Shown: positions 9,849 through 17,045 of the stretch, piece by piece | Position numbering within the stretch: position 1 is the stretch's first letter | Layout: the number at the start of each line of letters is the position of its first letter | NCBI GenBank assembly: GCA_013298565.1 | Contig: JAAFIC010000020.1 | Coordinates: forward strand, 1 to 41,496 | DNA from: Alphaproteobacteria bacterium | GTDB taxonomy: Bacteria; Pseudomonadota; Alphaproteobacteria; Elsterales; Elsteraceae | Reading direction: 5' to 3' | Length of the DNA: 41,496 bases | Position numbers and translations under genes: made by a program | The notes under the pieces: generated by a model | The model's input: the letters and a program-made list of their open reading frames with translations, nothing else | Told to the model about the DNA's origin: nothing | The model's database searches: none

Positions 9849-10529
9849 TTAAGACACCGGATAGCGCCGATACAGCACCAGCGGGTCGCCCGGCGCAGGT
9901 TCGATGAACAGGCAGAGGTCGGCGAGCGGCAGCCCTTTTGGCGCGAGGGCGTCGAAGGCCGGGCGCAATCTTACCAGCGCATCGGTTCGTGCAGGCTCTG
10001 GCAGCGATCCCGTGAGGGTTAAGTGCAGGCGGAACTCGTCGAACACGTAAGGATAGCCCCAGCGCTGAAGATAGTCTTTTTGGCGCGGCGACAGACCAGG
10101 GCCGCGTTTGGCAATTTCGGCCTCGGTTAGCGGCGCGCGGAAGCGGTCGAGCGCTTCAACACAACGACCCGCGAGCGCGGCCAGAGCTTCCGGCGGGTTG
10201 ATGGGGCAGAGCGCGAGGAACGAGCCGAGGTTTTGCACTGCCAGATCAAGCGGCACGGCGGTTAGCGTTTGCGCCAAGCGCTCGGTGGCGCGCTCGATTT
10301 CTGGTAAGTCCGCCCCATCGGCCAAGCGGAACGGCGCTTTCAGCGTGGCGTGAAACCCGTAGCGGCGGGGAGCGTCGGTGATCGTTTCCCAAGTGGCCTT
10401 CTCCAAACCAAGCCTAAGCGGTGGCACCCAGCGCCCACGCGCGTCGCGGCCCAACCAGCGGGCGGCAAACTCGGTCAGCGGCTGGCCTTCCGGCGGAGTC
10501 CAATACAGCGCGACGCGGTAGGGGTTCAT
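9849..10529 (-). CDS. DUF1045 / putative phosphonate metabolism 2H phosphoesterase
   Basis: The start is set at the ATG at 10527-10529, which overlaps the phnM stop as ATGA; an in-frame ATG 24 bp upstream is less likely. This gives 226 residues. Two HxTx motifs, FHATLKAPF near residue 60 and LHLTLTG near 170, define the 2H phosphoesterase fold and match the phosphonate-associated DUF1045 family. Members often sit in phn operons next to phnM and phnN; the exact reaction is not established. Translational coupling to phnM supports a shared pathway role here. Confidence 0.85.
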   Translation of the reverse strand: MNPYRVALYWTPPEGQPLTEFAARWLGRDARGRWVPPLRLGLEKATWETITDAPRRYGFHATLKAPFRLADGADLPEIERATERLAQTLTAVPLDLAVQNLGSFLALCPINPPEALAALAGRCVEALDRFRAPLTEAEIAKRGPGLSPRQKDYLQRWGYPYVFDEFRLHLTLTGSLPEPARTDALVRLRPAFDALAPKGLPLADLCLFIEPAPGDPLVLYRRYPVS

Positions 10530-11698
10530 GCCACGCGCCGCCCCGCGCGCCAAACGCCCTGCACGATGGGCAGCGGCGGCTCATCTGGGCGGCGATGCAG
10601 GCGCACGCGGATCAGATCGGCCCGCTTGCCGACCTCCAAGCGTCCGCGATCGGTAAGCCCTACGGCGTCGGCGGGGGTTGCGGTGGCAGTCGCGACGGCG
10701 GCGGGAAGCTCCGCCTCGGTAGGTGCGAGCAGGAAGACGGCTTGGAGCAGGCTGACGGGCATATAATCCGACGATAAAATATCGAGCCAACCGCGCGCGG
10801 CTAGATCGGCAGCAGCGATATTGCCGGAATGAGAGCCGCCGCGCACGAGGTTCGGGGCGCCCATCAGCAGCTTCATTCCGGCTTTGCGCGAGAGTTCGGC
10901 GGCTTCCAGCGTGGTGGGAAATTCGGCAATGCTCATGCCATTGGCTTTAGCTTCGGCTACATGCTCCGGCTTGGCGTCGTCGTGGCTCGCGAGCGGTAGC
11001 CCCAGTCGGTGAGCGGTTTCCACGATGGCGGCGCGTTGCGGCGCGGCATACAGGGCTTGCCGGGCGATAGTATCGGCCTCGAACACCTGCATTTCCGTAT
11101 CTGACAGGCTGAATTTCTTCTGATAAAAACGGCGGTAGCTGGCAAGGTTGGTAAACTGTCGCTGCCCCGGCGTGTGATCCATGATCGAGATCAGTTTCAC
11201 CACGTCCGGCGTTGCCAAGTGCTCGACCAAATCCATCAAATCCGGGTAGGAGATTTCGCAGCGCAGGTGCAGAAAATGTTCGGCGCGGGTGAGATCGGCA
11301 GCGCGGGCGGCCACAACGGCATCGGCCATGGTTTTCAAACTGCGAACCCGCTCGGAGCCTTCGCGCACGTCCCCCAACGCCAACGCATCCAGCACAGTCG
11401 TAATACCGCTACCCGCCATTTGCGCGTCATGGCTCAGAACCGCTGCCAGCGCCGGCCAGAGCACACCAGGGCGGGGGGAGAAATGCTTTTCCAGATTATC
11501 GGTATGAAGCTCGATCAATCCCGGCAGCAGATAATCGCCGTCACAATCCACCGCGCCGGGAACTTGGCTGATACCGCGTGCAATCTCGGTAATGTGACCA
11601 TTTTGGAGCGTAAGCGTGCCGATGATAACCTCGGAAGACAGGCATAGGCGCGTATTGGTCAGGATCAGTGTATCAGTCACCCTTGTTAAGTGTATCAT
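10526..11698 (-). CDS. phnM: Alpha-D-ribose 1-methylphosphonate 5-triphosphate diphosphatase PhnM
   Basis: A 390-residue amidohydrolase-superfamily protein of normal PhnM length. Seen: DYLLPGLIELHTDNLEKHF, a metal-binding motif specific to PhnM, then FSPRPGVLWP, the central SHDDAKPEHVAEA, IAEFPTTLEAA and the C-terminal SSDYMPVSLLQAVF. PhnM removes pyrophosphate from ribose methylphosphonate triphosphate in the C-P lyase pathway. The start ATG at 11698 is preceded by AAAGG at a good distance. An in-frame GTG (11680) is another possibility but has no spaced Shine-Dalgarno. The gene faces phnF across 173 bp that hold repeated AGTGTATCA sites. The rest of the C-P lyase set (phnGHIJKL) is not in the window. 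Confidence 0.92.
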   Translation of the reverse strand: MIHLTRVTDTLILTNTRLCLSSEVIIGTLTLQNGHITEIARGISQVPGAVDCDGDYLLPGLIELHTDNLEKHFSPRPGVLWPALAAVLSHDAQMAGSGITTVLDALALGDVREGSERVRSLKTMADAVVAARAADLTRAEHFLHLRCEISYPDLMDLVEHLATPDVVKLISIMDHTPGQRQFTNLASYRRFYQKKFSLSDTEMQVFEADTIARQALYAAPQRAAIVETAHRLGLPLASHDDAKPEHVAEAKANGMSIAEFPTTLEAAELSRKAGMKLLMGAPNLVRGGSHSGNIAAADLAARGWLDILSSDYMPVSLLQAVFLLAPTEAELPAAVATATATPADAVGLTDRGRLEVGKRADLIRVRLHRRPDEPPLPIVQGVWRAGRRVA

Positions 11699-11769
11699 TT
11701 ATCTAGAACCTTTATCCTCAATACCGCTATGCTGATGTTTAGAGCAAATCCCGAGCAGGTGATACACTT
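11667..11769. promoter_or_regulatory. Three AGTGTATCA sites around the phnM start, candidate PhnF operators
   Basis: AGTGTATCA lies at 11667-11675 inside the first codons of phnM, and AAGTGTATCA at 11688-11697 across its start codon. The exact reverse complement TGATACACTT lies at 11760-11769 in the phnM/phnF gap. The outer pair forms a perfect inverted decamer. A HutC-type GntR regulator is encoded next door, so autoregulation and phnM repression are plausible; this is inference. Confidence 0.4.
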
Positions 11770-11845
11770 GGTGCGACGCATTTGCTAAACAAAACAAAAG
11801 TCTAAAGTGTTAATCGTGAACCGATGTGAACGAGAAACACTCTAG
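11741..11845 (-). repeat. RIME-like mosaic palindromic element, copy 1 (inverted orientation)
   Basis: This is the reverse complement of the two-hairpin unit seen at 12991 and 36970. Hairpin B (11743-11786) has the perfect arms AGCAAAT/ATTTGCT. The linker reads AAACAAAACAAAAG, and hairpin A (11802-11845) has CTAAAGTGTT/AACACTCTAG arms. The centre of hairpin B differs from the other copies and carries one TGATACACTT site. The element fills most of the phnM-phnF divergent promoter region. Confidence 0.75.
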
Positions 11846-11871
11846 TAAGGGTATGGCGTTGGGGACGGTGC

Positions 11872-12582
11872 GTGCGGCAGACACTATGGCAGAAAATCGC
11901 GGATACCTTGCAACAGGATATTCGCGGCGGCGCGTTCGAGACTGGGGGGCGCTTGCCGACCGAGGCAGAGCTTGCGGTACGTTTTGGCGTTAATCGCCAT
12001 ACGGTTCGGCAAGCAATTGGCCATTTATCCAATCTGGGGTTAGTGGCCTCCCATCAAGGGCGCGGGGTGTTTCTGCGCGATACTGGGTTTGAATACCCTG
12101 TTGGGGCGCGCACCCGACTCACCGATAATCTCGTTCGGCAGGGGCGCAGGCCGGATCGTGAAGACATGCACGCCGAAATTCTTCCCGCCTCGCACTCTAT
12201 TAGCCGTGCCTTAAAACTGGCGACCCTCGCGCCGCTGTATTGGTTGAGTTACCGCACGCGGGTAGAAGGGCGACTGACCAGCCTCAACGATCATTATTTT
12301 CCCGCCGAGCGGTTTCCGGCCATTGGGGAGAATTTTTTGCGGTTAGGGTCAATCACGCAAGCCCTGCGTTGCGAGGGGATTGATGATTATTTGCGCGCCT
12401 CCACACGCATCAACGCCCGCATAGCCACCCCCGCCGAAGCCAAGCTGCTCGATCTTAGCCAGGGGCGGGCGGTTCTGCTAACCTGGGGCGTGGACTGCGA
12501 TATGTTGGGCTGCCCGATTAGCGTTAATCAAGCGCGGATGGTCGCGGATAGCGTTACTCTTACGGTCGAGCAGGATGAATAA
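11872..12582 (+). CDS. phnF: GntR/HutC-family regulator PhnF
   Basis: A 236-residue regulator. The N-terminal winged helix covers about 1-70: LWQKIADTLQQDI, GRLPTEAELAVRFGVNRHTVRQAI and GLVASHQGRGVFL. The C-terminal UTRA/chorismate lyase-like ligand domain covers about 85-230, with LYWLSYRTRVEGRL and VLLTWGVDC. Divergence from phnM identifies it as PhnF rather than another HutC protein. The start is a GTG at 11872; no in-frame ATG exists upstream and the Shine-Dalgarno is weak. It is followed by the P1 palindrome at 12611, whose stem plus TTTT could serve as its terminator. Confidence 0.87.
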   Translation: MRQTLWQKIADTLQQDIRGGAFETGGRLPTEAELAVRFGVNRHTVRQAIGHLSNLGLVASHQGRGVFLRDTGFEYPVGARTRLTDNLVRQGRRPDREDMHAEILPASHSISRALKLATLAPLYWLSYRTRVEGRLTSLNDHYFPAERFPAIGENFLRLGSITQALRCEGIDDYLRASTRINARIATPAEAKLLDLSQGRAVLLTWGVDCDMLGCPISVNQARMVADSVTLTVEQDE

Positions 12583-13119: not shown

Positions 13120-13623
13120 ATGAACAGCGCTCATCCCAACTATACCGTTCTTTTTCTGTGCACCGGCAATTCGGCGCGCTCAATTTTGGCGGAAGCGATT
13201 TTAACAAAGGTCGCGGGCGATCGGTTCAAGGCTTATTCGGCGGGCAGTCATCCAAGGGGCAGTGTTCATCCGTTGGCGCTGGACATGCTTAAGGCCAAGG
13301 GGCATGACACCAGTGCTTTGCGCTCCAAAAGCTGGGGCGAGTTTATCAAGCCCGGTGCCGTGCCGATGGATTTCATTTTCACTGTCTGTGATGCCGCGAG
13401 TAGGGAAACCTGCCCCGCGTGGCCTGGCGTGCCGATGACGGCCCATTGGGGAATGCCCGACCCAGCGGCGGTTGCGGGCATTGATTCGGAACAGCGCGCA
13501 GCTTTCAAGGAAACCTATGACATCATGACCCGGCGCATCGAGATTTATACCTCATTGCTGTTCTCCACACTCTCCAAGCTGTCGCTGCTGAATGAACTAA
13601 CGCAGATTGGTCGTGCGGCTTAA
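13120..13623 (+). CDS. arsC: Arsenate reductase, low-molecular-weight phosphatase (thioredoxin-coupled) type
   Basis: A 167-residue protein. The phosphate loop CX5R is Cys14-TGNSA-Arg20 (VLFLCTGNSARS). A second cysteine pair, Cys90 and Cys98 (TVCDAASRETCPAW), matches the cysteine relay of thioredoxin-linked ArsC, and DP at about 110 supplies the general acid region. It reduces arsenate to arsenite. No arsR, acr3 or arsB is nearby, so it appears as a lone gene. The ATG at 13120 follows GAGGATTATCT. Its TAA overlaps the stop codon of the converging oxidase gene. Confidence 0.9.
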   Translation: MNSAHPNYTVLFLCTGNSARSILAEAILTKVAGDRFKAYSAGSHPRGSVHPLALDMLKAKGHDTSALRSKSWGEFIKPGAVPMDFIFTVCDAASRETCPAWPGVPMTAHWGMPDPAAVAGIDSEQRAAFKETYDIMTRRIEIYTSLLFSTLSKLSLLNELTQIGRAA

Positions 13624-14850: not shown

Positions 14851-14879
14851 AAAAAAAAGCCCCGCAGCGAACTGCGGGG
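14851..14879 (-). terminator. Intrinsic terminator of the candidate small RNA
   Basis: On the minus strand CCCCGCAG-TTCG-CTGCGGGG is followed by C and then eight T residues. The UUCG tetraloop makes it an unusually stable terminator. Confidence 0.92.
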
Positions 14880-14978
14880 ACAAGTTGAACAGGGAGGCTT
14901 CACGTCTGGGAGACGTAGGGTTTCAAAAAAAACCCCTGACCGGGAGGGAACCCGGTCGATTGCTGCGTCGCAACAATC
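14851..14978 (-). ncRNA. Candidate AbcR-like (alpha-r15) trans-acting small RNA
   Basis: A predicted RNA of about 128 nt transcribed leftward. From its 5' end it folds into GATTGTTGC/GCAGCAATC (14978-14958), GACCGGG/CCCGGTC with loop TTCCCT (14957-14938), AGGGGTTT/AAACCCT (14937-14917) and ACGTCT-CCC-AGACGT (14916-14902). A single-stranded CCTCCC-containing stretch follows, then the terminator. A matching promoter (CTGCAA/AGAATA as read on plus) places the start exactly at hairpin 1. In rhizobia, AbcR RNAs lie beside lsrB/vtlR, whose LysR product activates them; here the neighbouring LysR gene is of that type. Exposed UCCC motifs suit binding to Shine-Dalgarno sequences. The family name rests on position and motif style, not on an alignment. 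Confidence 0.65.
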
Positions 14979-14983
14979 ACAAA

Positions 14984-15011
14984 AGAATAGGTAAGGTCTT
15001 GCATGCTGCAA
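14984..15011 (-). promoter_or_regulatory. Sigma70-like promoter for the candidate small RNA
   Basis: On the minus strand there is TTGCAG at 15011-15006 and TATTCT at 14989-14984, with a 16-bp spacer. The start would fall 6-7 bases downstream, at the first base of the 5' hairpin (about 14978). Confidence 0.6.
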
Positions 15012-15034: not shown

Positions 15035-15057
15035 AGACATGCGAAACCCGCATGTCT
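15035..15057. promoter_or_regulatory. Perfect 23-bp palindrome upstream of the small-RNA promoter, candidate LysR operator
   Basis: AGACATGCG-AAACC-CGCATGTCT has perfect 9-bp arms. Its centre is about 68 bp before the predicted RNA start, the usual place of the LysR recognition site. The LsrB/VtlR-like gene ends about 84 bp away. Binding is inferred. Confidence 0.5.
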
Positions 15058-15091: not shown

Positions 15092-15129
15092 AAACGCCTC
15101 CCCGGTCGAGAGTGGCGGGGAGGCGTTTT
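15092..15129 (-). terminator. Terminator after the LysR gene
   Basis: AAACGCCTCCCCG and CGGGGAGGCGTTT form a 13-bp stem. It starts 12 bp after the LysR stop on the minus strand and ends in a weak T-rich run. It separates LysR from the small-RNA unit. Confidence 0.8.
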
Positions 15130-15140
15130 AAGGTATTGAT

Positions 15141-16028
15141 TTAGAAGGCTTGTGCCGAAACTTGCCGCAGCAGAAAATCGCGTAAAACCGAAATGCGTTT
15201 CGAGTTTCGCAGTTCTTCGGGATAGACGAAATAAGCTGGAACTGCGGGGACTTCCACGTCCGGCAACAGGCGCACCACCCCAGAATCGCCGTTCGTCATA
15301 TAATCCGGCAATGCTGCAATGCCGATGCCCGACTTTACCGCCCGGTAGATGGCGTAGAAATTATTCACCTTCAGCACCGCCCGGCTGGAGAAATCATTCC
15401 CCCCCGCTTTCAGCAGCCAGTTCACTTCCGGAAAGGGCGCGCGCTTCGGATCGCCATAGCAAATGAGCCGATGGTTGCTAAGGTCGGCCAGATCAACGGG
15501 CGTTCCATGCTCCTTCAGATAGGCTTCCGAGGCGGCGATGTGGAAGTGAAACGTGGCCAAGTGGCGCTGAATAAGATCGGCCTGTCGCGGCACGGTCATG
15601 CGAACCGCCACATCGGCCTGGCGCATCGACAGGTCCAACTCGTCGTCGTCCAGCAACAGTGTTAGGCTGATTTCAGGGTGTAGTTCCAAAAACTCGTTCA
15701 GCCGGGGGGCAAGCCAAGTCGAGCCGAAAGCCACCGTCGTCGTTACCTTCAACGGGCCTTTGGGGCGATCCTTGCTTTCGTTCAGCATCGCTTCGGCCAT
15801 CGCCAACTTGGCGAAGATTTCCTTGGTCGTCCGGTACAGAAGCTCGCCCTGTTCCGTCAGGATCAGGCCACGGGCGTGACGGTGGAACAAGGGAACCGAC
15901 AGGCTATCCTCCAGCCCGCTGATTTGGCGGCTAACCGCCGACTGGCTGAGATTCAGCGCATCCCCGGCATGCGTGAAACTTCCTGCCTCCGCAACCGCCA
16001 GGAAGACACGCAGCTTGTCCCAGTCCAT
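15141..16028 (-). CDS. LysR-family regulator of the LsrB/VtlR type
   Basis: A 295-residue LysR protein. The N-terminal helix-turn-helix (MDWDKLRVFLAVAEAGSFTH, then LNLSQSAVSRQISGLE) and the following SVPLFHRHARGLILTEQGELL closely resemble LsrB/VtlR of rhizobia and Brucella. The C-terminal part is a periplasmic-binding-like effector domain. In those organisms the protein controls envelope and oxidative-stress genes and activates abcR small RNAs. A good Shine-Dalgarno (AGGAGGGG) precedes the ATG at 16028. It lies about 50 bp downstream of trxB on the same strand, the same order as in rhizobia, with a terminator after it and then the small-RNA candidate. A cysteine appears in RLICYGDP, which could be a redox sensor. 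Confidence 0.87.
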   Translation of the reverse strand: MDWDKLRVFLAVAEAGSFTHAGDALNLSQSAVSRQISGLEDSLSVPLFHRHARGLILTEQGELLYRTTKEIFAKLAMAEAMLNESKDRPKGPLKVTTTVAFGSTWLAPRLNEFLELHPEISLTLLLDDDELDLSMRQADVAVRMTVPRQADLIQRHLATFHFHIAASEAYLKEHGTPVDLADLSNHRLICYGDPKRAPFPEVNWLLKAGGNDFSSRAVLKVNNFYAIYRAVKSGIGIAALPDYMTNGDSGVVRLLPDVEVPAVPAYFVYPEELRNSKRISVLRDFLLRQVSAQAF

Positions 16029-16079: not shown

Positions 16080-17045
16080 CTATTCGGCAGCTTCGGCGCG
16101 AACGGCCTGACTGGCGAGAAACTTTTCGGCCTCAAGGGCCGCCATACAGCCCATCCCCGCTGCCGTTACGGCTTGGCGGAAATGCTTATCCTTCACATCG
16201 CCCGCCGCATAGACGCCGAGAATGTTGGTCGCGGTCGAATCCGGCGCAGTAATAAGGTAGCCGTCGCTATCGAGCGCCAGTTTGCCTTTGAACAGCCCCG
16301 TCTGCGGCACATGACCGATGGCGACGAAAACGCCGTCCACCGCAATATCCTGCACCGAGGCGTCGCGCGTGCTTTTCAGCCGAACCGCGCTTACCGTCGG
16401 CGGGGTGCCACTGGCGAGAATATCTTCGACTGTGTGATTCCAGATCACGCTGACCTTGGGATTGCCGAACAACCGGTCTTGCAGAATTTTTTCCGCCCGC
16501 AAACTGTCGCGTCGATGAACGAGCGTAACGTGGCTGGCGTGATTGGTCAGGTATAGCGCTTCTTCCACAGCAGTATTACCACCGCCGATCACGGCAACTT
16601 TCTTGCCCCGAAAGAAAAACCCGTCGCAGGTAGCGCAGGCGGAAACCCCCGCGCCGCGTAACTGTTCTTCGGCAGGCAACCCCAACCAGCGCGCAGTGGC
16701 ACCCGTGCAGATGATGATACTGTCGGCGGTATAAACCGCGCCGCTATCGGCCTTGGCGCGGAAGGGGCGGGCGGTTATATCGACATCTGTAATAAGATCG
16801 TACACAATCTCGGTGCCGACGTGTTCGGCCTGGGCGCGCATCTGATCCATCAGCCAGGGGCCTTGGATAACGTCGGCAAAACCGGGATAGTTTTCCACAT
16901 CGGTGGTGATCGTGAGTTGGCCACCGGGCGTCATGCCGGTAAACAGCATCGGCTTCAGATTAGCACGCGCAGCATAAATCGCCGCCGTATAGCCCGCTGG
17001 ACCCGCGCCGATAATTAGAACTTTCGTGTGGCGCTGCTCCGCCAT
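16080..17045 (-). CDS. trxB: Thioredoxin-disulfide reductase
   Basis: A 321-residue protein of normal length. The FAD-binding GAGPAGYTAAIYAARA, the redox pair Cys137-Ala-Thr-Cys140 (SACATCDGFFF), the NADPH-binding GGGNTAVEEALYL and the C-terminal GVYAAGDVKDKHFRQ are all in order. It reduces thioredoxin with NADPH. The start is set at the ATG at 17043-17045 (MAEQRHTKVLIIG); the open frame extends 18 codons further, but that stretch is not family-like. It probably shares a transcript with the downstream LysR gene. Confidence 0.96.
   Translation of the reverse strand: MAEQRHTKVLIIGAGPAGYTAAIYAARANLKPMLFTGMTPGGQLTITTDVENYPGFADVIQGPWLMDQMRAQAEHVGTEIVYDLITDVDITARPFRAKADSGAVYTADSIIICTGATARWLGLPAEEQLRGAGVSACATCDGFFFRGKKVAVIGGGNTAVEEALYLTNHASHVTLVHRRDSLRAEKILQDRLFGNPKVSVIWNHTVEDILASGTPPTVSAVRLKSTRDASVQDIAVDGVFVAIGHVPQTGLFKGKLALDSDGYLITAPDSTATNILGVYAAGDVKDKHFRQAVTAAGMGCMAALEAEKFLASQAVRAEAAE

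Follow-up and report, generated by a model that had tools for sequence, protein, structure and literature searches.

In this study, we identified a candidate small regulatory RNA in a stretch of 41,496 nucleotides from an alphaproteobacterium of the family Elsteraceae (hereafter the window). It comprises about 128 nt at 14851..14978 on the minus strand, with a 5' end that may lie up to about 6 nt further upstream, and its fold, conservation, covariation and match to a covariance model (R1) indicate a real and deeply conserved RNA. Judged by comparative analysis, it appears to be the positional and regulatory counterpart of rhizobial AbcR1 and not a demonstrated member of the alpha-r15 (ar15) family: the locus and promoter seem to be orthologous to those of abcR1, while the RNA body probably comes from a separate family. 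We regard it as probably a free-standing, trans-acting sRNA that would be controlled by LsrB (VtlR) from a promoter of its own and would act as an anti-Shine-Dalgarno repressor. All features of the RNA and its promoter given below are located on the minus strand.

Folding of 14851-14978 resulted in a minimum free energy of -57.7 kcal/mol compared with a shuffle mean of -35.4 (sd 3.4; z -6.6), and none of 200 shuffles folded as well. Based on the fold and the alignment, the RNA starts with the hairpins SL1 (GATTGTTGC-GAC-GCAGCAATC, 14958..14978), SL2 (GACCGGG-TTCCCT-CCCGGTC with a pyrimidine loop, 14938..14957) and SL3 (14917..14936), followed by SL4 (ACGTCTCCCAGACGT, 14902..14916), which is nearly invariant in the alignments and contains CUCCCA, a hexamer identical to M1 of Brucella AbcR (PMC5461406). 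Downstream of SL4, the single-stranded segment GAAGCCTCCCTGTTCAACTT (14882..14901) harbors the presumed anti-Shine-Dalgarno seed and an Hfq-type A/U stretch, and the unit ends with an intrinsic terminator (14851..14879) with a covarying stem, a UUCG loop and a T8 tail at 14858-14851. A hairpin beginning at 14978 with three further ones, a single-stranded CCTCCC stretch and a UUCG-capped terminator with eight T residues had already been listed in a preliminary description of this DNA, and all of these parts were recovered.

For comparison, 80 relatives of the window LysR were taken from named genomes, including Azospirillum, Thalassospira, Nisaea, Magnetospirillum, Telmatospirillum, Inquilinus, Oceanibaculum, and Tistlia. 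In 62 of these 80, the orthologous LysR gene was followed by the exact core GCCTCCCTG, and R1, which was built from 15 LysR-linked RNAs, added four more (L008, L019, L067, and L074), while exact core and R1 revealed no RNA copy within the flank examined in 14 of 80. Downstream of the LysR orthologue, the same four hairpins, the CCUCCC stretch and the terminator recurred, most of the relatives' RNAs formed the same hairpin chain when folded individually, and AAGCCTCCCTG in the single-stranded segment was invariant among 42 sequences. In a sequence-only alignment of 15 RNAs, 94.5% of the pair cells were paired, compared with at most 42.4% for slid structures as a control, and double changes were found in 13 of 33 pairs, amounting to 46 double-changed cells, whereas shuffles gave 15.8 and none of 500 came up to the observed number. 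An alignment of 64 sequences, which is biased towards the model because it was fitted to R1, revealed 404 double-changed cells versus 112 and agrees with the sequence-only alignment. Comparison with related genomes, proposed earlier as a check, thus showed hairpins conserved well beyond chance.

At the level of the class, R1 matched in 151 of 337 alphaproteobacterial genomes sampled class-wide, with a single copy (112 bits) in the window genome. Among the 30 best loci chosen by the RNA first, 24 displayed an LsrB-like LysR gene directly upstream on the same strand. When 20 RNA-first loci were tested against Rfam, one scored at the gathering score (SorX, 47.0 vs. 46.6), so that this seems to be a large family without an Rfam 15 model; over the window, Rfam at gathering score resulted in a tRNA alone. 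From these sequence comparisons, the RNA body appears to belong to an undescribed class-wide family, separate from ar15 and not represented in Rfam, and no report of the sRNA or its locus outside rhizobia was found in the literature searched. The preliminary description had located the RNA rightly but mentioned neither this extent nor the conserved operator at 15035-15057.

Further arrangements were observed in single genomes. Six Thalassospira loci (L042, L053, L061, L062, L073, and L077) revealed lsrB followed by two tandem RNA copies, both of which have an ATGC-N7-GCAT palindrome of their own, an arrangement like that of abcR1/abcR2. In L133 (G174:C1:3175621-3176246), lsrB is followed by three copies in tandem, whose loops are of the CTCCCAA type, and L134, L135 (G241), L136, and L153-L155 (G251) belong to sets of four or five LysR-unlinked paralogues in genomes of 1.6-1.8 Mb.

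The order on the minus strand is trxB, LysR, RNA, and FAD oxidase (14723-13620), which bears out the position downstream of the LysR gene (16028-15141) and trxB recorded before. A role of the RNA as leader or attenuator for the FAD oxidase gene is extremely improbable: its terminator is located upstream of a gene on the same strand, but ends 127 nt before it, the relatives' downstream sequence varies while the RNA is kept, and in some genomes the RNA occurs in tandem or at unlinked positions. The gene trxB (16080..17045) encodes a thioredoxin reductase (TIGR01292, 404 bits vs. cut-off 343). Since NCBIfam has no VtlR model, the LysR regulator (15141..16028) was classified by reciprocal best hit. 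S. meliloti LsrB matched it in the window genome with 323 bits at 49% identity, the second-best protein reaching 107 bits, and the reverse search against a plasmid collection led to LysR genes of rhizobial records, which, where annotated, were adjacent to trxB and in one case named VtlR. The DNA-binding (HTH) regions of the window LysR and S. meliloti LsrB were nearly identical, and the suggested LsrB/VtlR type could be specified as orthology with S. meliloti LsrB. Rhizobial LsrB possesses conserved redox cysteines, C144 and C273 in A. tumefaciens (PMC11975290); these are absent from the window LysR, which displays V at both positions aligned with the S. meliloti LsrB cysteines, and its signal may therefore differ. 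After the LysR gene, a terminator-like GC hairpin (15095..15125; a shorter version appears in the terminator listing) separates it from the operator of the RNA. Elsewhere in the window, phosphonate-metabolism-like genes (9849-12582; a PhnM-like amidohydrolase and a PhnF-type GntR regulator) and, on the plus strand, a low-molecular-weight phosphatase or arsenate reductase-like protein (13120-13623) were recognized from the sequence only.

The strong evidence for a promoter is a conserved LysR-type operator and not the -35/-10 pair. The putative operator AGACATGCG-GGTTT-CGCATGTCT (15035..15057), indicated by its conservation and fixed spacing, includes a 15-bp core ATGC-N7-GCAT (15039-15053) whose centre, 15046, precedes SL1 by 67-68 nt. 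This core contains the LysR-type T-N11-A, and the recognition site of LysR-type activators lies near -67. The palindrome was detected in 46 of 61 Rhodospirillales loci, with 0.7 expected from Markov shuffles, and the distance from its centre to SL1 was 61-71 nt, while that from SL1 to the conserved core of the RNA ranged from 73 to 116 nt. Among RNA-first loci, chosen by R1 alone, 21 of 28 displayed the exact palindrome with its centre 64-69 nt upstream, and the window's genome of 3.02 Mb contains the longer form CATGC-N7-GCATG just once. The exact palindrome was also kept in four of six RNA-first copies not beside a LysR gene, which suggests an LsrB regulon in trans. Loci observed without a LysR neighbour but with the exact operator 65-69 nt upstream are L114, L119, L127, L128, and L148.

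As for the -35/-10 pair described previously, its letters are present as the weak candidates TTGCAG (15006..15011) and CTATTC (14985..14990), but a sigma-70 consensus scan did not detect the pair, and the TATTC-like -10 letters differ in the close relative L083. Due to the weak -10 and this difference, the exact 5' end (14978 to ~14984) is uncertain, although the hairpin at whose first base the start had been predicted does begin at 14978.

The operator also bears on the idea that the RNA is cut by RNase E from the 3' UTR of the lsrB mRNA, as SorX is produced in Rhodobacter. Its location 160 nt downstream of lsrB on the same strand, the matches of R1 to SorX-like RNAs and the published derivation of SorX from the ompR-1 3' UTR (PMC6238624) would agree with such an origin, which we nevertheless consider improbable, as the distance between operator and SL1 is fixed across very different RNAs, unlinked copies without LysR bear the same operator, and the window has a terminator-like hairpin after lysR. 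A promoter belonging to the RNA itself is thus the preferred reading.

Comparable loci were found in the rhizobia. S. meliloti Ak57, Shinella, R. leguminosarum, and Sinorhizobium sp. each revealed trxB-lsrB followed by two ar15 copies. The first copy was preceded at 65 nt by the exact palindrome in S. meliloti, Sinorhizobium sp., and R. leguminosarum and by a version with one mismatch in Shinella, while the palindrome was absent before the second copy (AbcR2) in all four loci. Since AbcR1 was published as LsrB-dependent and AbcR2 as LsrB-independent (PMC8844928), the second copy serves as a natural control. In S. meliloti and R. leguminosarum, the GCAT of the known VtlR/LsrB box, GCAT-N3-TG-N3-T (PMC7486931), coincides with the right half-site of the palindrome; the box was complete in just 11 of 61 Rhodospirillales loci, and the palindrome seems to be the more general form. 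In Paracoccus, Pseudorhodobacter, and Octadecabacter, Rfam SorX/SorY matches were located directly after an LsrB-like LysR gene, and a one-mismatch palindrome preceded these lsrB-linked SorX/SorY-like RNAs by 68-71 nt. A SorX/SorY-type RNA after an LsrB-like LysR was seen in the Rhodobacterales loci L095, L096, and L101, in the first two upstream of a purL-like sequence.

The VtlR/LsrB box was suggested in 2020 to be maybe unique to Rhizobiales (PMC7486931), and LsrB was stated to be unique to this order in 2025 (PMC11975290). While AbcR has been treated as a Rhizobiales system, our data extend LsrB orthologues, the operator and an sRNA to many families of the Alphaproteobacteria and connect AbcR1 with SorX/SorY-like RNAs. 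We lean slightly towards the view that LsrB and the palindrome at -65 form an ancestral class-wide switch for anti-Shine-Dalgarno sRNAs, with rhizobial AbcR1, the lsrB-linked SorX/SorY-like RNAs of Rhodobacterales and the family described here as its order-specific products; in this view, the RNA body would have been replaced or remodelled, whereas locus, regulator and operator were retained. This raises the question of how an RNA body changes while its promoter persists; the operator sequence is unique, and Azospirillum and Magnetospirillum are easy laboratory hosts for the family.

Regarding its mode of action, LsrB, the product of the gene just upstream, would bind the palindrome near -67 and turn on transcription of the RNA, as its conservation and the literature on AbcR1 suggest. 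The RNA would end at the intrinsic terminator, and its U tail and the preceding A/U stretch may bind Hfq. With the help of Hfq, the exposed CCUCCCUG would pair with Shine-Dalgarno regions and block translation, and the hairpin loops CUCCCA and UUCCCU perhaps pair with them too. Target repression is proposed because of the invariant anti-Shine-Dalgarno segment and by analogy with AbcR1, which represses transporter and metabolic mRNAs by Shine-Dalgarno pairing (PMC5461406, PMC8844928), and with SorX/SorY, whose reported targets are transporters (PMC8307010). A scan for AACAGGGAGG-N4-9-ATG resulted in nine sites in nine genomes of the window's order, three of them in ABC-transporter genes, compared with three sites in the same genomes for the control CAAAGGGAGG. 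In the class sample, full-seed sites showed no enrichment of transporters over a permuted-flank control, and solute-binding proteins, judged by eye from the sequences, were equally frequent among the control sites (about 9/27 against 4-6/20). The target test was therefore withdrawn as evidence; in the window genome itself, no ATG was preceded by an exact seed site.

The preliminary description had considered the RNA an AbcR homologue or analogue. What holds is a non-rhizobial sRNA with the locus order, operator and spacing of abcR1, so that it looks like AbcR1 at the level of locus, regulator and operator, but homology of the RNA itself is unproven or wrong and it was not shown to be an AbcR. 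The Rfam search recommended for this purpose gave no match of the ar15 model (RF02345, cut-off 40 bits) in the window genome at E<=10, and R1 did not match the AbcR copies of the four rhizobial loci at E<=10 either. True rhizobial ar15 copies scored 97-127 bits with the ar15 model, which reached its cut-off in 0 of 289 class genomes. Three sub-threshold matches in these genomes were false on inspection, and none was near a LysR gene. AbcR has three hairpins (PMC3712013), with the anti-Shine-Dalgarno motif in the loop of the 5' hairpin and again between SL1 and SL2; the window RNA does not fit this scheme, having four hairpins plus the terminator and such letters in the loops of SL2 and SL4 and before the terminator. 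The motif sequences are also unlike (GUUCCCCUC in AbcR vs. CCUCCCUGUU in the window RNA), and AbcR occurs in multiple copies per genome, whereas the window RNA has one, with tandem pairs in its Thalassospira relatives. These differences in model matches, hairpin order and number, and motifs make it unlikely, though conceivable, that the whole RNA is a true alpha-r15 RNA by direct descent which diverged past the reach of the model. Locus, regulator, operator and spacing as in abcR1 would fit such descent, as would anti-Shine-Dalgarno pyrimidine motifs both in the loop of a hairpin and in single-stranded RNA, and since ar15 and suhB, which matches the window RNA at E 4e-4, share clan CL00108, a distant kinship is possible.

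In its 3' half, our counterpart of AbcR1 seems closer to suhB/mmgR and SorX than to AbcR. Its best Rfam match was suhB (RF00519, 28.8 bits, E 4e-4; gathering score 41 not reached), and SorX (RF02784) and SorY (RF02651) gave 22.8 bits each, below their cut-offs of 46.6 and 111. Conversely, R1 matched a Microvirga suhB RNA with 22.7 bits and SorX/SorY-like RNAs of Rhodobacterales with 25.4, 19.7, and 19.0 bits. The 3' half of suhB/mmgR (RF00519, clan CL00108) resembles that of the window RNA in its hairpin, CUCCCU, ACUU, and strong terminator, but suhB/mmgR has no SL1-SL3 and no known LsrB operator. SorY is transcribed from an RpoH-dependent promoter. SorX/SorY are shorter than the window RNA and share CCUCCCUGUU-N3-ACUU plus a terminator with it. 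Common to AbcR and the window RNA are anti-Shine-Dalgarno pyrimidine motifs and an intrinsic terminator, and AbcR1 additionally shares the order trxB-lsrB-sRNA and the LysR-type palindrome ATGC-N7-GCAT, located at -65 in AbcR1.
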